DNA from: Planctomycetales bacterium | GTDB taxonomy: Bacteria; Planctomycetota; Planctomycetia; Isosphaerales; Isosphaeraceae | Direction of reading: 5' to 3' | DNA: 64,000 nt | Assembly: GCA_027452145.1 (NCBI GenBank) | Contig: DAIDHB010000408.1 | Location: 1 to 64,000, forward strand | Part shown: positions 3,901 to 62,774 of the stretch, one piece after another | Layout of the letters: the number at the start of each line of letters is the position of its first letter | Position numbering within the stretch: position 1 is the first letter of the stretch | Notes under the pieces: model-generated | What the model saw: the letters and a program-made list of their open reading frames with translations, nothing else | The model's database searches: none | Told to the model about the DNA's origin: nothing | Translations under genes and position numbers: made by a program

Positions 3901-4600
3901 CCTGGTGGTGCCGATGTGCCTGCTCTGCTCACTGGCGGGCGTGCTGGGCACGGGGCGCGATGTGAATATCTTCGTGCAGATCGGCCTGGTCGTGCTGGTG
4001 GGCCTGGCGTGCAAGAACGCCATCCTGATCGTCGAGTACGCCAGGGAGAAACACCTCGAGGGCTGGTCGCGCGCCGAGGCCACGCGCGAGGCCTGCCGGC
4101 TGCGGCTGCGGCCGATCCTGATGACGTCGCTGGCCTTCGTCATCGGCGTGATCCCGCTGGCCGTCGCCTCGGGCGCGGGCTCGGAGATGCGGCGGTCGCT
4201 GGGGGTCGCCGTGTTCTCGGGCATGGTCGGCGTGACGCTGTTCGGCATCTTCCTGACGCCCGTGTTCTTCCACGTGATCCTGGGCCTGAGCGACGCCCGG
4301 ATGTTCCGCCAGGCCGGCGCGCGCTGGCAAATCTCGGCGGCCGCCGGCGGGCTGGCCGGGCTGGGCGTGGGCCTGCTCTTGCTCCGCGCCGGGATCCTCG
4401 TGCAGTACCGCGCCGTCGCCGCGTGCATCCCGGCCGGCCTGCTGGCGACCCTGGTCGTGCTGAGCCTGCGCCCCGGCTTCCGGCTGGCGGTCTTCGGCCG
4501 CCGCCCGCCGGAACCCGGCAGCACCCGCGGGGCCGACGGCTCATCGTTCCTCGACGACGGCGAGGGCGACGAGACCGAATCGAGCACCACTGACCACTGA
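929..4600 (+). CDS. AcrB-type RND efflux transporter (HAE1 family), first of two
   Basis: 1223 residues, longer than AcrB (1049). Inner-membrane proton-driven drug/solute exporter. Visible family marks are the N-terminal FFIDRPIFA, the TM4 proton-relay pair D415/D416 (GIVVDDAIVV) and the TM10 lysine K1029 (ACKNAILIVE). The linker between the two halves (about residues 523-600) holds two extra hydrophobic segments, around WWAFAIFGG and around the GAIAGGIAG stretch, which AcrB lacks. The C-terminus carries an additional hydrophobic stretch (GLGVGLLLLRAGI onward). The last residues TTDH and the stop codon are encoded inside a heptamer repeat array that runs towards the next pump gene. It presumably assembles with the upstream adaptor. 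Substrate cannot be read from sequence. Confidence 0.95.
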   Translation: MISKFFIDRPIFATVLSIAITLVGLIAWYNLPVAQYPRITPPGISITISYPGASAPVVADTVAAPIEQQVNGIDGMLYMSSQMANDGTYTLTVTFDIGTDVNAALVMVQNRVALAMPMLPTQVQNQGITIRKRTPDMLMIVNFFSPDGQYDDIYLSNFATVHVKDELLRVYGVSDINYMGQRDYSIRAWLDPQKLAARNMTAMDVANAIREQNIDAPAGQIGQLPAPRGQPFQLAVDTLGRLSTPEQFGDIVVKVGRADSREPAPGIVRLRDVARLELGAQNYNQSCTFDGYPAVGLSVYQLPGTNALDVATRVRARMEELKKRFPEGVDYVVGYDTTFYISESISEVYKTLRDAVLLVGLVVLIFLQDWRTMVLPMIDVPVSLIGTLAVMLALGFSLNNLTLFGLVLAIGIVVDDAIVVLENTERMIARGYDARTATIKAMEEITGPILAITLALSSVFIPCCFIGGITGQFFRQFAVTIAVSTIISAVNALTMTPSRAVLIFRTEQKGAHGGHAMRREALPWWAFAIFGGLASARFGYAHAAGQMGLIPPAAEGPGVADAGWMPWIAWGAAFLPGAIAGGIAGWFVIRPVNAVLGWLFRGFNRLFDVATDLYGRIVGGLLRVGALVILLYGGLLALTVWTFEESPKGFIPQQDQGRLIVNVQLPDSASLERTRDAMAKVVAITREDPGVAHTVAIAGLSFLLQTNASNFGSMFIVLKPFPERQKPGLHADDIMRRLRREFRRRVKDADVVVRNSAAVPGLGVAGGYKIMVEDRGGRGLRDLQDQTERLIDAMHKAGLTSASTQFRSLTPQLYLDIDRDKAQSMGLTFNDVNQTLSMYLGSLYVNSFNLFGRHWQVNIQLDGAYRTRPEAINLLQVRNRRGQMVPLGTLVNVREVGGPISVTRYNLYTSASITGNLGTGTSSGETIKAIDRLADDVLPLSMKADWTEIMLLQINAERDNPPLVVFSLSAVAVFLALAALYESWLLPLAVILVVPMCLLCSLAGVLGTGRDVNIFVQIGLVVLVGLACKNAILIVEYAREKHLEGWSRAEATREACRLRLRPILMTSLAFVIGVIPLAVASGAGSEMRRSLGVAVFSGMVGVTLFGIFLTPVFFHVILGLSDARMFRQAGARWQISAAAGGLAGLGVGLLLLRAGILVQYRAVAACIPAGLLATLVVLSLRPGFRLAVFGRRPPEPGSTRGADGSSFLDDGEGDETESSTTDH

Positions 4601-4635
4601 CCACTGACCACTGACCACTGACCACTGACCACTGA
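4587..4635 (+). repeat. Heptamer tandem array, CCACTGA x7
   Basis: Seven perfect, uninterrupted copies of CCACTGA fill the space between the two RND genes. The array encodes the last residues and stop codon (TGA, 4598-4600) of the upstream gene and ends 11 bp before the ATG of the next. It resembles the short tandemly repeated heptamers described in heterocystous cyanobacteria. It is one of five heptamer loci in this window. Confidence 0.95.
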
Positions 4636-4646
4636 AAACGAGCCCC

Positions 4647-7600
4647 ATGATCTCCCGCTTCTTCATCGACCGACCCGTCTTCGCGATTGTGCTCTCGCTG
4701 GTCATCGTGCTGGCGGGGTTCGTGTCGTGGGGCATGCTGCCGGTGGCGCAGTATCCCCAGGTGACGCCGCCCACGGTGACGGTGACGGCGTTCTACCCGG
4801 GCGCGAATGCGCAGACGGTGCGGAACACCGTGGCCGCGCCGATCGAGGAGCAGGTCAGCGGCGTGGAGAACATGCTGTACATGTCGTCGCAGTGCACCAA
4901 CGACGGCACCTATAACCTGACGGTGACCTTCCGCCTGGGCATGGACACCGACATGGCGCAGGTCCTGGTGCAGAACCGCGTGTCGCTGGCGCTGCCGGTG
5001 ATCCCGGCGCTCGTGCAGAACGAGGGGATCAGCGTCAAGAAGATGTCGCCCAACACGCTGATGATCGTGAACCTGGTCTCGCCGGGGGGGCGGTACGAAA
5101 GCACTTACCTGAGCAACTACGCGACGATCCAGATCAAGGACGAGCTGGGCCGGCTGCCGGGCGTCGCGGGGATCACGTTTTTGGGCCAGCGTGATTACAG
5201 CCTGCGCGCCTGGCTCGACCCGGCCAAGATGGCCGCGCTGAACCTGAGCGCCTCGGACGTGATCAACGCGATCAGCCAGCAGAACCTTCAGGTGGCCGCC
5301 GGCCAGATCGGCCAGCAGCCGGTGCCGCGGGGCCAGCAGTTCCAGCTCACGATCAACACGCTGGGCCGGCTGATCGAGCCCGAGCAGTTCGAGGACATCA
5401 TCCTCAAGGCGGGGGATGATTCGTTCCAGCCGGCGGCCGCGGCCGACGCCACGGGCGCCGTCGGCGGCGGGGCGAGCACCAACGGCGGCATGGGGGGCGC
5501 CCAGGCCACGCGGTCGTTCCAGGGCGGCGCCGAGGACCAGGGCGGCACGAACACCCAGGGCTCGACGCTCGCGCAGGCGACCGGCATCGTGCGGCTGCGC
5601 GACGTCGCGCGCGTCGAGATGGGCTCGCGCCAGTACGACCAGTCGTGCACCCTCGACGGCCGGCCCTCGGTGGCCATCTCGATCTACCAGTTGCCCGGCA
5701 CCAACGCGCTCGAGACCGCCCACGGCGTGTATGCCAAGATGCGCGAGCTCAAAGGCCGCTTCCCCGACGAGCTCGACTACCGGATCGTCTACGACACCAC
5801 GCCGTTCATCCAGGAGTCGATCGACGAGGTCTACAACACGCTCCGGGACGCCGTCATCCTGGTCGGCATCGTCGTCCTTGTCTTCCTCCAGGACTGGAAG
5901 GCGATGATCCTGCCGATGATCGACGTCCCGGTGTCATTGATCGGCACCTTCGCCGTGATGGCCGCGCTGGGGTTCAGCCTGAACAACCTGACCCTCTTCG
6001 GCCTGGTGCTGGCGATCGGCATCGTGGTGGACGACGCGATCGTCGTGCTCGAGAACATCGAGCGGCTGATCGCCACCGGGCTGGACTCGCGCACGGCGAC
6101 GATCCGGGCGATGGAGGAGATCACCGGGCCGATCCTGGCGATCACGCTGGTATTGAGCTCGGTGTTCATCCCGTGCTGCTTCATGGGGGGGATCTCGGGC
6201 CAGTTCTTCCGGCAGTTCGCGGTGACGATCGCGGTGTCGACGATCATCTCGGCGATCAACGCGCTGACGATGACTCCCTCGCGCGCCGTGATGATCTTCA
6301 AGACCGAGGGCAAGGGCGCCGACGGCAGCCACGAGCTGAAGCGCGAGGCGCTCCCCTGGTGGTTCTTCGCGATTGTCGGCGGCCTGATCACCGCGCGGCT
6401 GGGTTACGCGTATGCCCGCGGCCAGCTTGGAGTGACGGCCGAGGGGCTGGAGGACGGCTCGGTCTCGGTCTGGATGTCGCGGGCGGCATGGTGGGCCGCG
6501 TTCGGCCCCGGGGCGGTCGCCGGCGGGATCGTCGGCCTCATCATCATCCGCCCGGTGAATGCGGTGCTCGGCTGGCTGTTCCGCGGCTTCAACCGGCTGT
6601 TCGACCGGATGATCGAGGTCTACGGCCGCGTCGTGGGCGGCGTGCTGAGGATCAGCGCCGTCGTGCTTTTGCTCTACGGCGGCCTGCTGGGTCTGACCTA
6701 CTGGGAGTTCATCCGCACGCCCACCGGCTTCATCCCGCAGCAGGACAAGGGCTACCTGTTGCTGAACGTCCAGTTGCCCGACTCGGCCTCGGTCGAGCGC
6801 ACCCAGCGCGCCATGGCGCGGATCGAGGCCCTTGCCCGCGAGACGCCCGGGGTGGCGCACACTGTGGGCGTCTCGGGCCAGTCGCTGCTGCTCAACGCCA
6901 ACGCGCCCAACCTGGGCTCGATGTACGTTTTGCTCGAGCCGTTCGAGCATCGTCGCGGCCACGGGCTGTCGGCCGACGCCATCGCCGATCAGATCCAGGC
7001 CCGCTGCCGCGAGGTCCGCGCGGCGTCCGTCTCGATCTTCGGCGCCCCGCCGATCGACGGCCTGGGCGCCACCGGCGGCTTCAAGCTGATCATCGAGGAC
7101 CGCGGCAACCTCGGCCTGGAACACCTCCAGCACATCAGCGACGCGATCGTCGAGCGCGGCAATCGGACGCCCGGCCTCCAGGGGCTGTTCAACAGCTCGC
7201 GCGCCAACACGCCCTGGCTTTATCTCAACATCGACCGGACCAAGTGCATGGTCCTGGGCGTGCCGATCAGCGAGCTGTTCAGCACGTTGCAGGTGTACCT
7301 GGGTTCGTACTATGTCAACAACTTCAACAAGTTCGGCCGGACCTGGCAGGTGAACGTCCAGGCCGACCAGCGGTTTCGCGGCGACGCCGAGGACATCCGC
7401 CAGCTCCAGGTGAGGAACAACCGCGGGCAGATGATCCGCCTGGCGACCCTGCTCGACGTGAGCAACACCAGCGGCCCCGTGGCCGTGATGCGGTACAACA
7501 TGTACTCGGCGACGGCGATCACCGGGAACGCCGCGCCGGGGACCAGCTCGGGCCAGGCGATCGCCATGATGCAGGAGATCGCCGACAAGGAGCTGCCGCG

Positions 7601-8250: not shown

Positions 8251-9492
8251 ATGAGATCTATTGCCTTCTCCTGCCATCCTTCCCGGGGCGATCGGCGGCA
8301 CTATGTCGCGGAAGACGATGTCCGCATCGTCCTCGGTCGACTCCCTGAGCCGCTATGGGCCAGGCTCAGGGCCATTCATTTCAATGACCGGGCGATGGGG
8401 CGTCGGATCCTCGGCTACGTGAGGGCCGCCGGGAGGAACGAGATCAGCCTCTGCGCTCTCCCGCCCCGGGTCAGCTTGTCCCCCTTTTTGAAGCGGAATC
8501 AGTCGCCCACTCAGTTCGGCGCAGTACGCGGCTGCCAGTGGCCTGCACTGGCCGTGCGGCGATTCATGCTCTACGACGTCTTGCTCCACGAGATCGGCCA
8601 TCTTCAGGTTGTCGACGCCCGGGCAAAGGCGAATCGTCGCAAGTTCGCGGAGGAGACCCGTGCCCAGGAGTTCGCCGATCACTGGCGCCGGGAAATGTGG
8701 TCGCGTTCCTTCGACCATCCCGACCCGGTCCACAACCCGCCTTCCGCCGAGGAGATCGAAGTCGTGCGCGCCGGCTGGCGGGCGGCGCAGGTCGATTACA
8801 AGCGGGGGATACTTCGCGAGAAGTCGGGGCAATACGACAAGGCTGTCCACGACCTGACCCGGGCCATCGAGCGTTATCCGGGCCACGCCATGGCGCTGGA
8901 ACGGCTAGGCTTGCTGACCTATGCCGGCCGGGGGACGACCCAGTCCAACGACCGCGCGATCGAGCTTTTCCGTTCGGCGGTCCGACTGGACCCGACCCTC
9001 TACGCGGCGACCCTGTTCCTCGCGCTGGCCCTTTCCCGGCAGGGCCGCCAGTTCGAGGCCAGGGGGTGGTTCCGGCGTGCGATTCTCCTCGACCTGTTTC
9101 CTCCGCTGGCGATGGCGTGGTACGCGGACTCCCTGGCGGATTGGGGTCGCCTCGCCGAGGCGGAGGCCCTGTTCCTGAAAGCCATCAAGAAGGACGGGCG
9201 ATGCGTCGTCGCGATTCGGGATTACGGGCGCTCCCTGCTGAGGGGCGACGATCCCGTGCCGGAGGACAACATCCGACGGGCCGTCGTGCTGTTCGAGCGG
9301 GCCGTGGCTATTGACCCCGACGATCCGGAATCCCATTATCGACTCGGCGACGCCTTGCTCGGCCTCGACGTCGACCGGGACCGGGCAATCACTCATCTCA
9401 AGCGGGCCTTGCAACTCAATCCATCGCATGCGATGGCCGCCGAGGCGCTCGCCGAAGCCCGGGCGGATTGCGAAGGCACCGACGCGAGCTGA
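8251..9492 (+). CDS. HExxH metalloprotease-like domain fused to TPR repeats
   Basis: 413 residues; ATG 8251 is chosen because it follows the RND stop by 7 bp and the protein reads well from there. The N-terminal part has H113-E-I-G-H117, preceded by a hydrophobic run (MLYDVLL) as in zinc metalloproteases. A possible third ligand is the Glu in AQEFADHW about 25 residues later. From about residue 185 to the end it is built of tetratricopeptide repeats (YKRGILREKSGQYDKAV is typical). No signal peptide is seen, so it is probably cytoplasmic. It may be co-transcribed with the pumps. I cannot name a family; proteolytic activity is inferred from the motif only. Confidence 0.8.
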   Translation: MRSIAFSCHPSRGDRRHYVAEDDVRIVLGRLPEPLWARLRAIHFNDRAMGRRILGYVRAAGRNEISLCALPPRVSLSPFLKRNQSPTQFGAVRGCQWPALAVRRFMLYDVLLHEIGHLQVVDARAKANRRKFAEETRAQEFADHWRREMWSRSFDHPDPVHNPPSAEEIEVVRAGWRAAQVDYKRGILREKSGQYDKAVHDLTRAIERYPGHAMALERLGLLTYAGRGTTQSNDRAIELFRSAVRLDPTLYAATLFLALALSRQGRQFEARGWFRRAILLDLFPPLAMAWYADSLADWGRLAEAEALFLKAIKKDGRCVVAIRDYGRSLLRGDDPVPEDNIRRAVVLFERAVAIDPDDPESHYRLGDALLGLDVDRDRAITHLKRALQLNPSHAMAAEALAEARADCEGTDAS

Positions 9493-9889: not shown

Positions 9890-10208
9890 TTGGACTCCTG
9901 GGAATCAACGCTCGTCAATGCATTCGATTTCCCCTGAATCGCGTCCCACGCGAATCCCAAGAAAGAAAGTAAAAGGCCTCCGCCATGGTAATCCTGGTCC
10001 CAAAGCCTTTGCAGCGAGCGACATGGAGATAGCGAACGCGTTGTGTTGTACTTTGTCTACAACCGTCGACGACCTCCGACTCCATCGGTTCGATCGAACA
10101 ATGGCCATCTCCCTTGCGTCGTCCCGGAATTCGAGACTTCTCGCTCAACACCACCGCGGTCCCTCCGCAAGACCATGGTTGACAAGGACTTGAAGGCGGT
10201 TTTTTGGG

Positions 10209-10439
10209 CACTCCTCGCCGAACACCGCCTGGCCGGTCCTGGGCGAACCGGCGACGTCAGTCGCCGGGTGGACTCGCCAGCTCGGGCAACGCCGCTCGAC
10301 GCCTTCGGGCGACCCGGCGACGTGAGTCGCCGGGTCATCAGGCCGAGAGCCAAAACCCGGCGACTCACGTCGCCGGTTCGCCCAGCCCGAGCGATCCGCC
10401 CATGCCGGGCTCGAACCAGATGGTGTTCGGCGAGGAGTG
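10209..10439. mobile_element. 231-bp miniature inverted-repeat element
   Basis: The ends are perfect 18-bp inverted repeats (10209-10226 and 10422-10439). Inside are three copies of a palindrome built on CCGGCGACGTNAGTCGCCGG at 10242-10269 (+), 10308-10335 (+) and 10355-10382 (-). No coding capacity and no obvious target-site duplication are seen. The same palindrome occurs at 28.3, 28.5, 60.6 and 61.9 kb. The 319 bp between the HEAT remnant and this element hold nothing I recognise. Confidence 0.75.
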
Positions 10440-10960: not shown

Positions 10961-13042
10961 ATGGCGATGCTTGACCGCGCGCAGAATCTGCTGGCACGGA
11001 ATTTCCTGGCCCACCGAGGGCGCCGACCCGCCCGGAACACCGTCCGTCGGCGCGAGCTCGAGGTCCTGGAAGCCCGCGCGCTGCTCACGACGTTCACGGT
11101 GACGAACCTGCACGCCGCGGGCGCCGGCTCGCTCCGCCAGGCGATCATCCAGTCCAATAGCCACCCCGGCCCCGACACGATCGACTTCGGCGTGATGGGA
11201 ACGATCAAGGCCGGCCGGCAGTCGCTGCCGGCGATCACCGGGACAACCACGATCGACGGCACCACCGCGCCGGGATTTCAGGGCTCGCCGGTCGTCACGG
11301 TGAACTTCAACGGGACGCGCGGCCTGCGGTTCGCCGCGGGATCGGACGGCTCGGCGCTCGAGGCGCTGGCGCTCGTCCGGGCTGGTGGCGCGGGGGTCAC
11401 GCTGATCGGCTCAAACATCACGGTGCAGGGGAACGACATCGGCGTGATGGCCAACGGCTCGACCGTCGCGGCGAACCGCGGCGACGGCATCCGGATCGTG
11501 GCCGCGTCGCACGGCGACATCATCGGCCAGCTCGACCCGGTGACGAGCATCAGCTACTACAACACCGCGACCATCGACCAGACGATGCCGGTCTCGGGCT
11601 GGCAGGGCATCCGCAGCGCCGGCACGCCGGGGCAGTACCTCATCACCGGCACCTCGAACACCAACGGCCTGCTGTACATCGGCCCGATCTCGGGCCAGGG
11701 CGGCACGCCCCTCTCCGTCAACTATCCGAACGCCTTCTCCACCAGCGTCTACGGCCCCGACGTCGTCTCGGGCAGCGGCAGCAGCCAGGTCCTGCGGCTG
11801 GTCGGCAGCTACAGGGCCACCCAGGGCGGCCCCGTCCAGGGATTCGTCTTCCAGGGGACGACCGCCGACCTGTCAAATTCCGCCGACTACAAGACGATTG
11901 ACTACTCGGGCGCGAACTACGTCTACGTGCACAGCACGATGGGCGACCTCGCCGTGGGCAACGCCGGCGATATCCCCGCCCAGACCGACCATGCCTTCAT
12001 TTACAGCGTCCCCCAGGGGCAGATCGTTTCGACCATCACCTATCCGGGCTCGCAGGTGACGTCCACCACGGCCTACGGCATCTGGTACAACGGCGGGACC
12101 AGCTACACGATCGCCGGCGGGTATACCACGCTGCTCAGCCCCGGCCAGACGGCCAGCGAGGCCTACCTGGTCGATTACAACGCGTCCAACGGGCAGTTCA
12201 GCAACTGGACCTCGTTTGCCGGGCCCGAGGGGCTCACGGGACCGTCCTTCGCCACGCACTTCCAGGGGATCAGCAGCCCCGTGCCGGGCGTCTATACCCT
12301 GAGCGCCGACGTGACCAACCCCACGTCGAGCACGCCCCTCCAGGCCACGCTGACCACGGTGCTGCGCAATCCCGACGGCACGTTCGGCCCCGCCTACTGG
12401 GTCAACCTGAACTATCCCGGCGCGACCGGGATGCAGACCGCCGACTCGGTGGCCGGCAACCAGGTCGTCGGCCTGGCCGACCTGGGCTCGAACGGGGGCA
12501 TCATCTCGTACCAGGCGACGGTCAACCTGGGCTTCCGGCTGTCGAACGTCATCAGCGGCAACCGCGGCAACGGCATCGCGATCCACGGCGCCTCGGGCGT
12601 CCGGATCGGCATGAACAACATCGGCACCAACGCCAGCGGCACCCTCGCGCGCGGCAACGCGAAGAACGGCATCCTGCTCGACGGGGGCGCGTCGGGGAAC
12701 CAGATCGGCGGCCTGGCACCCGTGGGCGGCGACAGTAGCAGCGGCAGCAGCAGCGGGAACGTGGGTGTCCGCCCGCCGCAGGGCAACCTGATCTCGGGCA
12801 ACCGGGGGAACGGCGTGCTGATCACCGGCGGCGCGACCGGCAACGTGATGACCGGCAACTACGTCGGCACGAACGCCCAGGGCAACCCCGCGCTGGGCAA
12901 CCGCCAGGACGGCGTCGCCGTCATTCACGCCGGCAGCAATCAGGTCGGCAACGGCATGCCGATGGGCAACGTGATCTCGGGCAATGCCCGCAGCCAGGTC
13001 CGGACGAGCGCGGCCGTCCGCCTTTCTGGTCGCGGCGCCTGA
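10961..13042 (+). CDS. Secreted right-handed beta-helix protein with LEPR-xLL-type N-terminus, 3' truncated
   Basis: 693 residues from ATG 10961 (GGAGG about 10 bases upstream). The N-terminus carries the planctomycete export motif in the form LEVLEARALL, followed by TFTVTNL and GAGSLRQAI, typical of large secreted beta-helix proteins. Helix rungs are seen near residues 110-190 (GDGIRIV) and again near 525-680 (NVISGNRGNGI, NLISGNRGNGV, GNYVGTNAQGNPALG). Residues about 190-520 are a separate insert without these rungs. It ends abruptly in the middle of a rung (NVISGNARSQV followed by a non-rung tail), and a further rung fragment lies downstream in another frame, so the gene is broken. Probably a surface or extracellular protein of unknown ligand. 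Confidence 0.85.
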   Translation: MAMLDRAQNLLARNFLAHRGRRPARNTVRRRELEVLEARALLTTFTVTNLHAAGAGSLRQAIIQSNSHPGPDTIDFGVMGTIKAGRQSLPAITGTTTIDGTTAPGFQGSPVVTVNFNGTRGLRFAAGSDGSALEALALVRAGGAGVTLIGSNITVQGNDIGVMANGSTVAANRGDGIRIVAASHGDIIGQLDPVTSISYYNTATIDQTMPVSGWQGIRSAGTPGQYLITGTSNTNGLLYIGPISGQGGTPLSVNYPNAFSTSVYGPDVVSGSGSSQVLRLVGSYRATQGGPVQGFVFQGTTADLSNSADYKTIDYSGANYVYVHSTMGDLAVGNAGDIPAQTDHAFIYSVPQGQIVSTITYPGSQVTSTTAYGIWYNGGTSYTIAGGYTTLLSPGQTASEAYLVDYNASNGQFSNWTSFAGPEGLTGPSFATHFQGISSPVPGVYTLSADVTNPTSSTPLQATLTTVLRNPDGTFGPAYWVNLNYPGATGMQTADSVAGNQVVGLADLGSNGGIISYQATVNLGFRLSNVISGNRGNGIAIHGASGVRIGMNNIGTNASGTLARGNAKNGILLDGGASGNQIGGLAPVGGDSSSGSSSGNVGVRPPQGNLISGNRGNGVLITGGATGNVMTGNYVGTNAQGNPALGNRQDGVAVIHAGSNQVGNGMPMGNVISGNARSQVRTSAAVRLSGRGA

Positions 13043-28249: not shown

Positions 28250-28305
28250 GGAGGACTCCGTTGGTGAGGGAGCGGGGACTGGCTCCGCATTCGATGGGCC
28301 CGTCC

Positions 28306-28518
28306 CGCCTGGCGAACCGGCGACGTGAGGCGCCGGGTCATGCCTGAAGCCTGATACACAGACCCGCTGATGCGGTCTGGTTGATGGGAGGACGAGGCTC
28401 CTGCCGAGCCGCGGGGGAGGGCTCGCCGGGAGGCTCGCCCTCCCGGACCGACCGGAAAGCCTCAGCGGGCTCATGAAGGAAAAGAACCCGGCGACTCACG
28501 TCGCCGGTTCGCCTGGCG
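28306..28518. mobile_element. 213-bp inverted-repeat element with a nested second repeat
   Basis: The ends are 33-bp inverted repeats with two mismatches (28306-28338 and 28486-28518), each holding one copy of the CCGGCGAC palindrome family. Nested inside at 28386-28444 is an inverted pair of a second family (GGGAGGACGAGGCTCC type) also present at 43735-43813. The right end stops one base before katG's stop codon (28520-28522). Confidence 0.75.
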
Positions 28519-28519
28519 G

Positions 28520-43848: not shown

Positions 43849-44757
43849 ATGTCCAGCGCCACGACCACGACCATCGCCGGGGCCCCTTCATCGAGCATCG
43901 GCGGCGCCTCGCCGATCTCGCCGATCCCGCGCCGGCCGCTGGGCCGCACGGGCCACGACGTGACCCAGTTCGCCCTCGGCGGCGAGGGCGTGCTTCGCAC
44001 GCACGGGCGCATGGCCGAGGCCGTGGCCGTGATCCACCGGGCTCTCGACCAGGGGGTCAATTACTGCGACACGGCGCCGGCCTACGCGGGGAGCCTCGAC
44101 TACTATGGCGCCGCGCTGGGCGACCGCCGCCGCGAGGTGTTCCTCGCCTCCAAGACGCACGACCGCACCCGGGATGGCTCGCTGCGCCTGCTCGACGAGA
44201 GCCTCAAGCGGCTGCGCACCGATCACCTCGACCTGTGGCAGCTCCACGACCTGCGGACCCCGGCCGACCTGAGAGCGATCTTCGGCCGCGGCGGCGCGCT
44301 CGAGGCCCTGATCCAGGCGCGCGACGAGGGCCGCGTACGGTTCCTCGGCCTGACCGGCCACCACGACCCGGCCATTCTGCTCGACGCCATGGGCCGGTTC
44401 GACTTCGACACCGTGCTCGTCGCCCTGAATGGGGCCGACGTCCACCGCTCGTCGTTCGCCCGCAGCGTGCTCGTCGAGGCGAGTCGTCGGGAGATGGGCG
44501 TCATCGGCATGAAGGTCTACGCCGCGGGCGGTCTGGTCCGCTCCGGAGCCCCGGGCCTCACCCCGGCGCAGGCCATGGGCTACGTGCTGAGCCTCTCCGG
44601 CGTGTCGACCGTCGTCATCGGCTGCTCGAGTCCCGACGAGGTCGACGAGAACGCCGGAATCGCCCGCGAATTCCGGCCGTTCGAGCCCTCGATGATGCTC
44701 GCCGTCGAGCAGCACACCGCCCCCAACGCGGGGTACTTCACGTCGTACAAGAAGTAG
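43849..44757 (+). CDS. Aldo/keto reductase
   Basis: 302 residues. The catalytic tetrad of the family is visible: Asp and Tyr in NYCDTAPAYAGS, Lys in FLASKTHDR and His in DLWQLHDL. The segment STVVIGCSSPDEVDEN is the usual C-terminal NADPH-binding end. The first 25 residues are a Ser/Thr/Ala-rich extension before RPLGRTGHDVTQF, where the domain starts; a later start is possible. No signal peptide, so a cytoplasmic NADPH-dependent oxidoreductase. A GAC-rich stretch with no clear Shine-Dalgarno precedes ATG 43849. Confidence 0.92.
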   Translation: MSSATTTTIAGAPSSSIGGASPISPIPRRPLGRTGHDVTQFALGGEGVLRTHGRMAEAVAVIHRALDQGVNYCDTAPAYAGSLDYYGAALGDRRREVFLASKTHDRTRDGSLRLLDESLKRLRTDHLDLWQLHDLRTPADLRAIFGRGGALEALIQARDEGRVRFLGLTGHHDPAILLDAMGRFDFDTVLVALNGADVHRSSFARSVLVEASRREMGVIGMKVYAAGGLVRSGAPGLTPAQAMGYVLSLSGVSTVVIGCSSPDEVDENAGIAREFRPFEPSMMLAVEQHTAPNAGYFTSYKK

Positions 44758-44810
44758 GTCGGGCCGTCCTGCCCGACGCGCCCAGGCCCAGTCGGGCAGT
44801 CCTGCCCGAC
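44758..44810. repeat. Paired palindromes, GTCGGGCAGTCCTGCCCGAC family
   Basis: Two 20-bp palindromes (44758-44777 and 44791-44810) start on the base after the aldo/keto reductase stop codon. The same family occurs at 59060-59119. They could serve as terminators. Confidence 0.8.
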
Positions 44811-50705: not shown

Positions 50706-50842
50706 GTCCGTTGTCCGTTGTCCGTTGTCCGTTGCAGGGCTACCGCCCTTCGTGCCTTCATCGGCCCTCATGCGATCGGCCCGTCATCTCGGAGCCACCC
50801 TCGACATCCGCGGCAGCGAACAACGGACAACGGACAACGGAC
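50706..50842. repeat. Heptamer/core element: GTCCGTT x4, 88-bp core, AACGGAC x3
   Basis: Left array 50706-50733 (four GTCCGTT), core 50734-50821, right array 50822-50842 (three AACGGAC, the reverse complement). The core begins GGGCTACCGCCC and ends CCGCGGCAGCGAAC, and is homologous to the reverse complement of the core at 51961-52041. It ends 9 bp before the P-II start. Confidence 0.9.
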
Positions 50843-50851
50843 CAGGAACAA

Positions 50852-51199
50852 ATGAAACTCATCATCGCCGTCATCCAGCCGACGAAGCTCGAGGCGGTGA
50901 AGGAAGCCCTGTCGAAGGTCGAGGTCTTCCGCCTGACGGTGATGGACGTCCAGGGCTTCGGGCGGGAAAAGGGTTCGTCCGAGCTGTACCGCGGGCACGA
51001 GGTGACCGTCAACGTGCTCCGCAAGATCGAGCTGCAGATCGCCGTGAACGAGGATTTCGTCGAGCCGACCATCAGCGCGATCCTTGAGGCGAGCCGCAGC
51101 GGACCCGACGGTATGATTGGTGACGGCATGATCGCTGTGCTCCCGCTCGCCGATTGCGTGCGAATCCGGACCGGCGAACGCGGCCCGGAGGCGATCTGA
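50852..51199 (+). CDS. P-II family signal protein, divergent
   Basis: 115 residues, close to the usual 112. The P-II signatures are seen: KLIIAVIQPTKLEAVKEAL, the T-loop entry GFGREKGSSELYRG and the C-terminal VRIRTGERGPEAI. Y46, K58, R104 and R106 are conserved. Tyr51, the uridylylation site, is Val. The B-loop has a 3-residue insertion and Met at both positions corresponding to Lys85 and Lys90 (GMIGDGMIA in place of GKIGDGKIF). Nucleotide binding or modification may thus differ. ATG 50852 is chosen because the fold begins there (AGGA 6 bases upstream); a longer frame is encoded by the repeat element. It overlaps the HAD gene by one base. Confidence 0.92.
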   Translation: MKLIIAVIQPTKLEAVKEALSKVEVFRLTVMDVQGFGREKGSSELYRGHEVTVNVLRKIELQIAVNEDFVEPTISAILEASRSGPDGMIGDGMIAVLPLADCVRIRTGERGPEAI

Positions 51200-51930
51200 T
51201 GGCGATCTCGGCGGTGATCTTCGACTTCAACGGCGTGCTGATCGATGATGAGGCGGTGCACTGCGCGCTCTTCCAGGAAGTGCTGGCGGAGGAGGGGGTG
51301 GTCATCACCGAGCGCGATTACCACGATCGGTACATGGGCTATGATGACCGCGGTTGCTTCGACGCGGCGCTGAAGGACGCCGGCCAGGCGGCCGACCGCG
51401 CCCGGCTCGACGACCTGATCGCCCGCAAGGCGCGGCGATACGTGGAGGCGGCCGAGCGGGGGCTGCGATTCTTCCCGGCGGCGGCCGAGACGATCCGGGC
51501 CATCTCGGCACGCTGGCCCGTGGCGATCAACTCGGGCGCGCTGCGGCCCGAGATCGAGTACGCCCTCAACCGGCTGAAGTGCCGCGATTGCGTCGCGGCG
51601 ATCGTCTCGGCCGAGGACACCGACCGGTGCAAGCCCGACCCCGAAGGCTATCGGCTGGCCTTCGAGGCCCTTCGGACCCACGGCAACGCCCGGCCCGTCG
51701 GTCACGGACACGGACACGGACACGACGCACCGAGCCCCCTCGCGCCGTCGGCCTGCCTGGTCATCGAGGACACCCTGGCCGGGGTCATGTCGGCCAAGGG
51801 CGCCGGGATGCAGGTCGTCGGGGTCAGCACGACCTTTGACGCCGACTCGCTCCGAAAGGCCGGGGCCGACGATGTCGTCGCGGCGCTGGCCGACTTCACT
51901 CCCGAGTGGATCGAACGGCGCTTTCGCTAA
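51199..51930 (+). CDS. HAD-superfamily hydrolase (phosphatase/phosphoglucomutase-like)
   Basis: 243 residues. Motif I is D9-F-N11-G-V, where the second acidic residue of the usual DxD is Asn; motif II is INSGA (S at the expected position), motif III CKPDPEGY, and motif IV VIEDTLAGV. The helical cap after motif I resembles the beta-phosphoglucomutase/phosphoglycolate group. Near residues 171-182 is a His-rich GHGHGHGHD insert from a GGACAC microsatellite. The start is coupled to the P-II gene (TGATG overlap). Loss of the second Asp weakens the acid/base step, so it may be a modified phosphatase; that is inference. Confidence 0.88.
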   Translation: MAISAVIFDFNGVLIDDEAVHCALFQEVLAEEGVVITERDYHDRYMGYDDRGCFDAALKDAGQAADRARLDDLIARKARRYVEAAERGLRFFPAAAETIRAISARWPVAINSGALRPEIEYALNRLKCRDCVAAIVSAEDTDRCKPDPEGYRLAFEALRTHGNARPVGHGHGHGHDAPSPLAPSACLVIEDTLAGVMSAKGAGMQVVGVSTTFDADSLRKAGADDVVAALADFTPEWIERRFR

Positions 51931-51932
51931 TG

Positions 51933-52069
51933 GGTCATTGGTCATTGGTCATTGGTCATTGGTTCGCTGCCGCGGACGTCCGCGGCTGAGACATGGCGAT
52001 CGAGGAGAGCCGGTGGAGGCAAGACGGGCGGTAGCCCGACCAATGACCAATGACCAATGACCAATGACC
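51933..52069. repeat. Heptamer/core element: GGTCATT x4, 81-bp core, AATGACC x4
   Basis: Left array 51933-51960 (four GGTCATT) begins 2 bp after the HAD stop; core 51961-52041; right array 52042-52069 (four AATGACC). The last AATGACC supplies the ATG of the next gene. The core, read on the minus strand, starts GGGCTACCGCCC and ends CCGCGGCAGCGAAC, homologous to the element at 50706-50842 although the heptamer arms differ. Confidence 0.93.
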
Positions 52070-53197
52070 AAACCTGGAATAGCCCTGGTCATCACCGACC
52101 TGGACGTCGGCGGCGCCGAGAAAGCCCTGACGTCCCTGGCCACGCGGCTCTCGCCGTCGCGATGGCGGGTCGGCGTCTTCTGCCTGGGTGGTGAGGGACC
52201 GCTGGCCGAGGTGATCCGGTCCGCGAAGTTGCCGTGCGAGTGCCTCGCGATCGGCCGCCGCAATCCGATGGGCGCCATCACCCGGTTGGCGGCGAGCCTC
52301 CGGCGCTTCGGGCCCGACCTGATCCAGAGCTTCCTCTTCCACGCCAACATCGCCGCGAGGCTGGCGGCGCTGTCGCTCGGCCCGCCTCGTCCGGCGGTGC
52401 TCGGCGGCATCCGCGTGGCCGAGCCCCGGCGCTGGCACCTGGCCCTCGACCGCTGGACCTCCCGGCTGGTCGAGGTCGAGGTCTGCGTCTCGCGCGGGGT
52501 GCTCGAGCACAGCCGCGACGCCGGCGGCCTGGATCCCTCGCGACTCGTGGTCATCCCCAACGGAATCGACCCGTCCCCCTTCGACGCGGCAACTCCCGTG
52601 GCGCGATCGTCGATCGGTATTCCTGATGATGCCCACCTGGCGCTCTACGTCGGCCGGCTCGACCCGCAGAAGGGGCTATTTGACCTCCTCGCCGCCGCCG
52701 AAACCGTGATCGCGCATCGCCCCGACTGGCACCTCGCCCTGGCCGGCGACGGACCCGACCGCGAACGGCTGGTCGACCACGTCTCCGCGAGGCCCGCGCT
52801 CTGCGACCGCATTCACTGGCTGGGCCGTCGCGATGACATCCCCGGCCTGCTCAGATCGGCCGACGTGCTGGTCCTCCCCTCGCACTGGGAGGGCATGCCG
52901 AACGTGGTGCTCGAGGCGATGGCCGCAAAGGTTCCCGTGGTCGCCACGGCCGTCGAGGGCACCGTGGACCTCGTCATCCCTGGGGAAACAGGCTGGCTCG
53001 TGCCCCCTCGCGTGCCTACCGCGCTGGCGCAGGCCCTCGACGAGGCCGCCGCCGACCCCGCGCACCGCCGCCAGTTCGGCGAGGCCGGCCGCCTCAGGGT
53101 CGAGCGCGAGTTCTCCCAGGGCGCCGTCGTCGCCGCTTACGAACGCCTCTGGACCGAGGTCCTGCGGCGACGCTTCTCCTTTGTCACTGGTCATTAG
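52064..53197 (+). CDS. Glycosyltransferase family 4
   Basis: 377 residues with GT-B fold marks: GGAEKALTSLATRL near the N-terminus, IPNGIDPSPF at the inter-domain hinge, LYVGRLDPQKG, and the sugar-donor motif EGMPNVVLEAMA (the E-x7-E pattern). It transfers a sugar from a nucleotide donor to a lipid or polysaccharide acceptor in the cytoplasm. ATG 52064 lies in the last heptamer of the upstream repeat; no Shine-Dalgarno is seen. At the other end the residues VTGH and stop TAG are encoded by the first heptamers of the next element, so both ends of this gene are made of repeat. Confidence 0.92.
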   Translation: MTKPGIALVITDLDVGGAEKALTSLATRLSPSRWRVGVFCLGGEGPLAEVIRSAKLPCECLAIGRRNPMGAITRLAASLRRFGPDLIQSFLFHANIAARLAALSLGPPRPAVLGGIRVAEPRRWHLALDRWTSRLVEVEVCVSRGVLEHSRDAGGLDPSRLVVIPNGIDPSPFDAATPVARSSIGIPDDAHLALYVGRLDPQKGLFDLLAAAETVIAHRPDWHLALAGDGPDRERLVDHVSARPALCDRIHWLGRRDDIPGLLRSADVLVLPSHWEGMPNVVLEAMAAKVPVVATAVEGTVDLVIPGETGWLVPPRVPTALAQALDEAAADPAHRRQFGEAGRLRVEREFSQGAVVAAYERLWTEVLRRRFSFVTGH

Positions 53198-53286
53198 TCA
53201 TTGGTCATTAGTTGCGAATACCCAGGCCATTCGCGACGCCAGCCTCAGGAGTCAACGTCAGCGACCAATGACCAATGACCAATGAC
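53183..53286. repeat. Heptamer element: GTCATTA/G x4, 55-bp core, CAATGAC x3
   Basis: Left array 53183-53210 (GTCACTG, GTCATTA, GTCATTG, GTCATTA) encodes the end and stop codon of the glycosyltransferase; core 53211-53265; right array 53266-53286 (three CAATGAC). The core has its own inverted repeat (GCGAAT/ATTCGC) and is not clearly homologous to the other two cores. Confidence 0.85.
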
Positions 53287-53371
53287 CAAAGCGCGGATGC
53301 ACGTTCACAACCACCGGATCTTCGATCGCTACGGCCGCGAGGTGGTCAGCCTGGCGATCCTGGCCGACGAC
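53282..53371 (+). pseudogene. Fragment of an Rpn/PD-(D/E)XK-type transposase-associated nuclease
   Basis: The frame from ATG 53282 (in the last heptamer) reads HVHNHRIFDRYGREVVSLAILADD, which resembles the YRIFDRYxxxVVSLAVL core of Rpn-family (YhgA/DUF4351-type) PD-(D/E)XK proteins, then loses all resemblance and runs into the convergent kinase gene. Only about 30 residues remain, so it is a remnant. Confidence 0.5.
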
Positions 53372-59059: not shown

Positions 59060-59119
59060 TCGGGCAGTCTTGCCCGACTCGGGCCGACCGCCCGTCCGCG
59101 TCGGGCAGGACTGCCCGAC
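59060..59119. repeat. Paired palindromes, TCGGGCAG-CTGCCCGA family
   Basis: Two palindromes (59060-59078 and 59100-59119) of the family at 44758-44810 fill the gap between two convergent genes. The second ends on the base before the stop codon of the minus-strand gene (59120-59122), so it may end transcription from both sides. Confidence 0.8.
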
Positions 59120-59419
59120 CTACGCGGATCGGTTCCAGTTCGTCGCCGGCCGACTCCGCCGCGCCCGGTCGATCAGCACGAGGTTCCTCGTGTAGATGAA
59201 CAACCCCATCGACTGCCCCATCACGATCACCGGATCGCGCCTGGAGATCGCGTAGGCCAGAAGCGCCGCGCCCCCCAGCAGGCTCAGCCACCAGAACATC
59301 ACCGGCACGACCGCGTCCCGCCGGCGCTCCGAGGCCATCCACTGCACCAGAAACCGCGCGGTGAAAAGCGCCTGGCCAACAAAGCCGACCGTCAGCCAGA
59401 ACGTCGTCATTCCGGCCAC
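59120..59419 (-). CDS. LAB_N-domain membrane protein
   Basis: 99 residues. The whole protein matches the lipid-A-disaccharide synthase N-terminal domain (LAB_N): FWLTVGFVGQALFTARFLVQWMASERRR, VMFWWLSLLGGAALLAYAISRRDPVIVMGQ and FIYTRNL, with three membrane helices. It is encoded 3 bp after a GT2 glycosyltransferase on the same strand; such pairs are common and probably modify undecaprenyl- or lipid-linked sugars. GTG 59419 is chosen because GGAGGG lies 7 bases upstream; ATG 59410 is an alternative. Reaction not established. Confidence 0.9.
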   Translation of the reverse strand: MAGMTTFWLTVGFVGQALFTARFLVQWMASERRRDAVVPVMFWWLSLLGGAALLAYAISRRDPVIVMGQSMGLFIYTRNLVLIDRARRSRPATNWNRSA

Positions 59420-60421: not shown

Positions 60422-60559
60422 GTCCGGGCCTCCTTGCCTCGACCTCGTCTTCCGATTCCGATAGGGATGTGACCAGGGCGCGCAACGCCGAGATGGGAAC
60501 GCGCATTCTCCAAACTTCGCGAGCGGCGTCCACCCCAGATTCCGGGGTAGCCCGGTCCA

Positions 60560-60587
60560 GGCGAACCGGCGACGTCAGTCGCCGGGT
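60560..60587 (+). repeat. CCGGCGAC-palindrome copy (single)
   Basis: One copy of the family found at 10.2-10.4 and 28.3-28.5 kb, in the 190-bp gap between the GT2 start and the 3' end of the next gene. No inverted partner nearby. Confidence 0.8.
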
Positions 60588-60611
60588 CCTGACGAAACCT
60601 CCATCGCCGGG

Positions 60612-61799: not shown

Positions 61800-62774
61800 G
61801 GTTCGCTTGACCTTTCGTTCGGTGGTCGAATCGGCGGGCAGTGCCCACCTGGCAGGACGGTCTCAGGATCTTCCGCGATCGAGTCTAGCAGAACGGGGAC
61901 CAGCTCCGATTTTCCCCTGACCACCCAAGCGAACCGGCGACGTGAATCGCCGGGTCATCCCTCCACCGTCGCCGTGTATTGGGCGAGCCCGCGCCAAGCC
62001 CTGAAAGCGCGGCACAGAGACAACCGCGGCCCGCCCCCTGTCACGCCCTTTCCGGGCCTTTCCCCGCGGGTTCGCCGGTTCGGTTCCCCGGGGCGATGCC
62101 CGGGCTGATCTGTTTGGCCCCTTCGGGGCGATTCGTGGTGGCGTCCGGCGAGGAGGCTCCTCCCGACCGCCGCCAGCCGGGCGCCCGGGTCGGGTCCGAC
62201 CGGTGGGATAGCGACAACATTTCCCATCGGCCGACCCGCCGGCCCGCAACGCCAACCAGGTCGGTTCGGCCGTGACGGACGGGACCGAATCGCGGCGATC
62301 CCGCCGCGGCGGGCACGGGCGACCCGCTCGGCCGGGCCGGAGCCGCGGCGTTGTTCATCCGTCCGGCGGCCTCGAAGAGACGCCTGAGACGCCGGCCCGG
62401 CCCCGGCACCTCAGGGGACGTGCCCTCTCGCCGGCAGGGGTACGCGGCGAGGTGAGGGTTGCCGGCGCGGCCGCCGATCGGGCGGGCACGAGGTGTTCTG
62501 TTCGCGAAGAACCTCCGGGAACCCGGTCCAATCCCGGCCGTCCTCCTGGCTCAGCTCGAGTCCGAGCGAGGCTCCGGGGCAACCGGGCAGGCGATCGAGG
62601 GTCGGCACGACTCGACCCGGTCGAGTCGAGGGGCGACAACCACAACCACCCACTCACCTGGTCTTCCACCCGACCTGGTTCAGTTCGCGACAACCGGAAC
62701 AGGACGTGCATCTCGGAACGGGGCCGCCGCGGTGGCGCAAAGACCTCATCTTGATTCGGGGAGGAGAGCGACGG
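61800..62774. other. 975-bp gap with one palindrome copy
   Basis: No gene is supported; several GC-rich open frames overlap on both strands without similarity or ribosome-binding sites. The only recognised element is the palindrome at 61929-61956. The last 100 bp should hold the promoter of the next gene. Confidence 0.5.
61929..61956 (+). repeat. CCGGCGAC-palindrome copy (single)
   Basis: Copy with one change in the right arm (GAATCGCC for GAGTCGCC), followed by TCAT as at 10336 and 28339. Confidence 0.75.

Follow-up and report, generated by a model that had tools for sequence, protein, structure and literature searches.

Arrays of tandem heptamers have long been known from cyanobacteria, and their origin is still without agreement. 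In Nostoc, very small dispersed repeats of 21–27 nt, the SDR elements said to have been treated by Elhai et al. in 2008, are reportedly often embedded in such heptameric arrays. The STRR sequences of filamentous cyanobacteria are intergenic tandem units of 7 bp that can form hairpins between genes, for which roles in transcript stability or termination have been suggested (PMC2670836). Intergenic heptamer arrays also occur in distant phyla, as exemplified by TAACTGA, whose direct repeats in Beggiatoaceae, Cyanobacteria and Bacteroidetes are located upstream of start codons, with a single inverted case in 170 sets and no core (PMC4679880), and GGGNATC repeats have been described as well (PMC4692102). 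A further group of short palindromic extragenic repeats, REP, BIME and REPIN, is found near gene 3′ ends and displays a hairpin with varying but complementary stem bases; GTAG REPs have been reported in Planctomycetes, and in most REP families the GTAG tag adjoins the hairpin in more than 90% of copies (PMC3733652).

The elements described here were found in a planctomycete stretch of 64,000 nucleotides, which is referred to as the window; the genome under study is designated G000, its congeners G001, G002, G003 and G004, and a member of another genus of the same family G008. Like STRR, their arms are tandem 7-bp units that are intergenic and capable of forming hairpins, but the arrays are the arms of a core that is dispersed in Planctomycetes and do not constitute the whole element; the literature covered mentions neither a common core for STRR nor any inversion of a core or switch of arms. 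By description, they also differ from SDR elements, since the core of 75–90 bp is placed between inverted arrays and inverts. Heptamer arrays as such are therefore already known, and what appears to be undescribed is an invertible shared core combined with concerted switching of its arms: a limited search of the literature on STRR, TAACTGA, GGGNATC and GTAG REPs, covered in part, returned no such arrangement, which does not in itself prove novelty.

Element E1 (50706–50842) starts with a left arm of 4.1 copies of GTCCGTT (29 bp, 50706–50734), delimited from the sequence and by array scans, and ends with a right arm of 3.3 copies of ACAACGG (50820–50842). Between them lies a core of 85 bp (50735–50819, minus strand), assigned in reverse orientation to a family termed A on the basis of alignment, shuffles and a profile match; the corresponding CM match spans 50737–50820 with 70.3 bits, the E1 sequence being part of the training set of the model. 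The core carries a terminal hairpin, AGGGC-TACC-GCCCT (50736–50749), visible in the sequence and backed in its position by covariation within the family, and, on the minus strand, a conserved end that reads TTCGCTGCCGCGGA in reverse complement (50807–50820). Element E2 (51933–52071) has a left arm of 4.4 copies of GGTCATT (51933–51963), which starts 2 bp past the stop codon of the upstream gene, a family A core of 74 bp in forward orientation (51963–52037, plus strand), recognized by the same three approaches, and a right arm of 4.9 copies of GACCAAT (52038–52071), no strand being assigned to the arms of either element. In this core the conserved end occupies 51963–51976 and the hairpin, CGGGC-GGTA-GCCCG, 52025–52038. 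The first ATG of the frame downstream of E2, at 52064, is inside its right arm. An earlier note on this DNA had recognized the array, core and inverted array of both elements as well as the difference between GTCCGTT and GGTCATT arms, and this anatomy and its placement hold, E2 now being read to 52071. Each element fills nearly the whole gap separating two genes, which, judging from their translations, we take to be a DUF1552-type and a P-II-type gene for E1 and a HAD-type gene and a glycosyltransferase-like frame for E2.

The two cores, one of them reversed, are 73.5% identical over 83 columns (BLAST E = 4e-10), in good agreement with the roughly 70% that had been estimated by eye. The comparison with shuffled sequences called for in the earlier note gave a global alignment score of 38.5; in 1000 shuffled versions the score averaged 0.5 (standard deviation 3.5) and never exceeded 14. 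RNA folding, also suggested there, revealed that the whole of E1 folds far better than its shuffled counterparts (z −9.2). A structured RNA formed by the core itself was rejected, as the cores of E1 and E2 alone behave much like shuffles (z −0.6 and −1.6, respectively), and clear covariation support is confined to the short terminal hairpin, with one clearly covarying pair. No match to Rfam reached the gathering score anywhere in the window. Integron attC sites were dropped as a candidate on anatomical grounds (tandem heptamers, no cassettes). Two further features of the window had been overlooked earlier: a third inverted-arm element, E3 (53180–53289), with a degenerate GTCATT left arm (53180–53212), a GACCAAT right arm (53263–53289) and a core without any family A match, and a lone (ACCACTG)7 array (4586–4635) with no inverted partner within 250 bp.

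Family A is not restricted to this locus. A third full copy lies on contig C30 (E = 2e-5), and a sequence-only profile built from nine cores and applied to 14 genomes of the planctomycete family, with the best 150 candidates per genome scored, retrieved eight matches in G000, two each in G001 and G002, four in G003, three in G004 and at least 49 in G008, the last figure being a lower bound because scoring was limited to the best 150 candidates. One weak match was found in G018 and none among the best 150 candidates of each of seven further genomes of the family; the weakest profile matches (E near 0.01) may be due to chance. Allowing one mismatch, the end motif GGTTCGCTGACGCGG occurs 59 times in G008, compared with two occurrences of the reversed control, and the 29 copies aligned from that genome have a mean pairwise identity of 83% and deviate by 10.5% from their consensus. 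The existence of these copies removes the objection, raised in the earlier note against its own reading, that the core might be absent elsewhere. The core measures about 75–90 bp, with a strongly conserved end, TTCGCTGnCGCGG, and the terminal hairpin at the other; the same TTCGCTGnCGCGG end is also shared by cores that are otherwise different (L065, L088 and L092). All copies read in G000 and G008 sit between heptamer arms, which in 29 of 29 G008 copies are of the GTCCGT type. Many inverted heptamer pairs in G000 enclose cores that match nothing else. Three mutually related cores, with degenerate GGACAAAGAGCAAAGGAC tracts, lie within 5.2 kb of one another and define a second core family, B (L087:6767–6902, 10084–10283 and 11672–11871).

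Genome-wide statements on G000 rest on searches and on 1.37 Mb of sequence, partly picked around GACCAAT arrays. This sequence holds 67 arrays of period 7 against at most 16 for any other period between 4 and 15, an excess that is inflated by the choice of those loci. The arm units have the form NGTNNNT, most commonly GTCATTG, GTCATTA, GTCAGTG, GTCCGTG and GTCCGTT, and a further class, CGGTTTT/AAAACCG, likewise occurs in inverted pairs. With up to two mismatches, GACCAATGACCAATGACCAA yields 259 matches in the genome, overlapping registers of one array being counted separately, and its reversed control none. The two arms of an element belong to one heptamer class in 23 of 25 array pairs (p = 5e-5 by permutation, which gave a mean of 12.3), and the 24 neighbouring pairs display the GT-left/AC-right order without exception; a wider tally that includes the relatives comprises 38 pairs in this order, none reversed and three with both arrays pointing the same way. 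An origin by entry of a core into an array that already existed was rejected, since it would leave arrays of one direction on both sides and 24 of 24 are inverted. Each genome favours its own heptamers: mostly GTAATTG, GTTCTT and GTTATTG among the matches listed for G001 and G004, GTAATTG in the regions read of G002 and GTCCGTG in G008, and GACC units number 229 in G000, 148 in G003, 34 in G001, four in G004 and two in G002. The main classes differ by just one or two substitutions, so that mutation and slippage are able to produce them; a vocabulary common to many loci of a genome is the point hardest to account for by local slippage. In L236, L256 and L264, nested arrays resemble insertions into older copies, for which local duplications are an equally possible origin.

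At 20 of the 25 paired elements of G000 (12% at random positions) and at 28 of 29 in G008 (22% at random), a long frame has its stop codon next to one edge of the element, the frames being mechanical rather than curated genes and the distance windows differing slightly between the two genomes. By analogy with what has been proposed for STRR hairpins and for REP and BIME, the elements are likely to furnish the upstream gene with a long RNA hairpin at its 3′ end. An exact search of a one-genome-per-species collection for two GGTCATT units, 70–100 bases and two AATGACC units returned 18 loci, in Oscillatoria, Laspinema, Mucilaginibacter, Fibrella, Lewinellaceae, Verrucomicrobia/Akkermansiaceae, Planctomycetia, Singulisphaera and a deltaproteobacterial MAG, none of whose cores belongs to family A by eye. 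The heptamer palindrome is widespread, the likeness to STRR extending to NGTNNNT-form inverted pairs in Oscillatoria and Laspinema themselves, and family A was seen in this planctomycete family, in the search of 14 genomes. A G008 copy found no match among plasmids, and the GGTCATT...AATGACC arrangement was absent from IMG/VR contigs. Two of these contigs carry GACCAAT/GGTCATT pairs in the opposite, AC-left/GT-right order (L390:3896–3996; L391:5676–5784 and 9373–9475); as the only exceptions seen, they indicate that the GT-left/AC-right rule is not universal.

With arrays that form the arms of a defined repeat and with orthologous sites open to comparison across species, both core inversion and arm switching become visible and countable. 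Such sites were taken from contigs of the relatives and from two syntenic regions, in which the relatives were searched regardless of their heptamers. At the E1 site an element is present in all four congeneric genomes that are readable there, with GTCCGTT arms and a minus-strand core in G000, GTCATTG arms and a plus-strand core in G003, degenerate GTAATT arms and a plus-strand core in G004, and GTAATTG arms and a minus-strand core in G002. The site contains no repeat element in G008 (L192, G008:C497, about 5620–6440), where an extra frame, presumably a Uma2-type nuclease by its look, lies between the DUF1552 and P-II genes. Comparison of G000 with G003 revealed a significantly inverted core at six sites (E1, C146, C556, C536, C324b and C30) and a core of the same orientation at three (C221, C102 and C26), that of C487-2 being unchanged by eye; the E1 core is also significantly inverted between G002 and G004. 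Inversion of the core in place goes beyond what the earlier note had foreseen.

The arms change class at E1, C30, C439, C487-1 and B1. Both arms pass from GTCATTG to GTCCGTG at C30 and from GTCATTG to GTCAGTG at C439, and at C487-1 the right arm consists of a different heptamer, the adjoining half of the core retaining its sequence and direction. At B3, GTAATT arms surround other cores in three congeners, and at C439, B1 and B3 the cores are unrelated or unrecognizable between species. Within the genus the elements persist at orthologous sites: heptamer sequence is kept in G003 at six of six paired sites (those of the two regions and E1), B2 being a half element. The other G003 sites were mostly found through their arrays, which makes persistence look higher there than it is, and their choice took no account of orientation. 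The flanks of orthologous sites are mostly 85–96% identical, and the same-orientation cores of C221 and C102 have diverged about as little as their flanks, whereas family A or inverted cores are 76–84% identical (E1 76, C30 81, C556 82, C26 83 and C146 84, the last over its alignable 56 bases). In both G000 and G003, the E1 core is closer to cores at other loci than to its counterpart in the other genome, whereas the C556 and C146 orthologues are each other's closest relatives.

E1 and E2 are probably, if by no means certainly, copies of a miniature non-autonomous repeat of MITE/BIME-like character. Terminal inverted repeats, small size, the non-coding sequence and the multiple copies are features that they share with MITEs. 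Copies of family A, each a core of about 75–90 bp between inverted arrays of an NGTNNNT heptamer, would have been dispersed in the past by duplicative movement, settling right after stop codons, and an occupied site would then keep its element over long times. Replication slippage may lengthen or shorten the arrays and fix new heptamer variants, hairpin or template-switch copying from arm to arm could keep both arms matched, and the core would be turned around by recombination between the inverted arms or by a template switch from one to the other. No target-site duplication or base-resolution empty site was found at the congeneric sites, where the array edges are fuzzy, or in G008, the one genome of its genus covered, and a check around the Y1 loci examined found no autonomous partner or linked transposase. 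The earlier note had envisaged a mobile or self-propagating element whose arms evolve or are acquired separately. Two parts of this are well supported, the dispersal of the core family (at least 49 copies in G008), from which we infer mobility, and the change of the arms independently of the core, as one site and core family carries other heptamers in a sister species; separate acquisition is needless, since one or two substitutions separate the heptamer classes, which may thus replace one another within a site.

The same comparisons bear on a different history, interlocus gene conversion or repeated re-insertion, according to which occupied sites are landing places where whole elements, with core, arms and orientation, are replaced by other copies of the family; we regard it as possible, although rather unlikely. 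Such replacement would make the arms grow alike across a genome, which is compatible with the distinct vocabularies of G001, G002 and G004 (GTAATTG/GTTCTT among the matches listed), of G000 and G003 (GTCATTG/GTCAGTG/GTCCGT) and of G008, and it fits the unrelated cores at C439, B1 and B3 and the relationships of the E1 cores better than in-place change does. The inverted cores of C556 and C146, being closest to their own orthologues, show on the other hand that inversion occurs without replacement, and the arm switch beside a retained half-core at C487-1 also argues against exchange of the whole element. Both processes, flipping within the site and replacement by another member of the family, are probably at work. 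The inverted repeats of about 30 bp around a segment of 75–110 bp, together with the six inverted and three unchanged cores, recall phase-variable invertons, in which a site-specific recombinase would flip the core and switch the expression of neighbouring genes. Here, the two orientations were found between species and the arms vary by site and species, a variation not easily reconciled with a sequence-specific recombinase; the position of most elements at gene 3′ ends rather than ahead of promoters, as well as the housekeeping-type genes that flank E1 and E2, further make this mechanism improbable.

A REPIN or GTAG-REP dimer that is moved by a RAYT (Y1) transposase and happens to lie in heptamer arrays would likewise be small, carry a terminal hairpin and sit at gene ends; GTAG directly precedes the hairpin in some G008 copies and Y1 genes are present in the carrier genomes. 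However, GTA(G) was found ahead of the hairpin in just six of 25 copies, the two core ends are on average no more alike than by chance (z averaging 1.3 and reaching 3.6 in individual copies) and form no clear REP pair, Y1 genes are equally present in non-carriers, and neither elements nor arrays lie beside the Y1 loci examined (13 by profile, 20 by array pattern); we regard such an origin as highly improbable. Very improbable, too, in our judgement is that the heptamers are written in trans, by a telomerase-like enzyme or other reverse transcriptase that carries its own template and adds species-specific units to an element intermediate at each of its 3′ ends. If true, this would account for arms that match, for a GT-left/AC-right geometry that does not vary, for sites that stay fixed while each genome keeps to one vocabulary, and for identical heptamers in phyla far apart. 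That E1 and E2 are ordinary STRR-type palindromes with chance cores and an accidental likeness is hardly credible: the many G000 pairs with unmatched cores and the heptamer palindromes of several phyla speak for it, but family A, with its copies in another genus, lies far beyond chance. For this family the chance reading is refuted, and it may hold for many of the other cores.

With two countable motions at comparable sites, slippage, gene conversion and templated synthesis become separable by ordinary comparison of strains. A gene flanked by TTCGCTGACGCGG ends and heptamer arms would be a candidate for the enzyme that moves the family. Such loci can also differ between assemblies in orientation or arm sequence without any assembly error.

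Other repeats share these surroundings. At two sites that heptamer elements occupy in G000, inverted arrays of another kind are present in congeners, of the type CACGAAAAACACGAAGGACACGAAA... at the B1 site (L355, L356 and L357) and CACAGAGGACACAGAGAGCACAGAG... at the E2 site (L190 and L191). Palindromes of the GTAGGTCGGGC...GCCCGACCTAC type occur in the window at 44754–44787 and 59090–59123, in L189 near 2200–2329 and in L349, and in G003 heptamer arms enclose one such palindrome at each of the sites E2 and C324a. The window also contains a second interspersed repeat, GGCGAACCGGCGACGTnAGTCGCCGGGT, which forms inverted pairs 85–147 bp apart and is found at 10239–10385, 28305–28519, 60545–60590 and 61916–61962.
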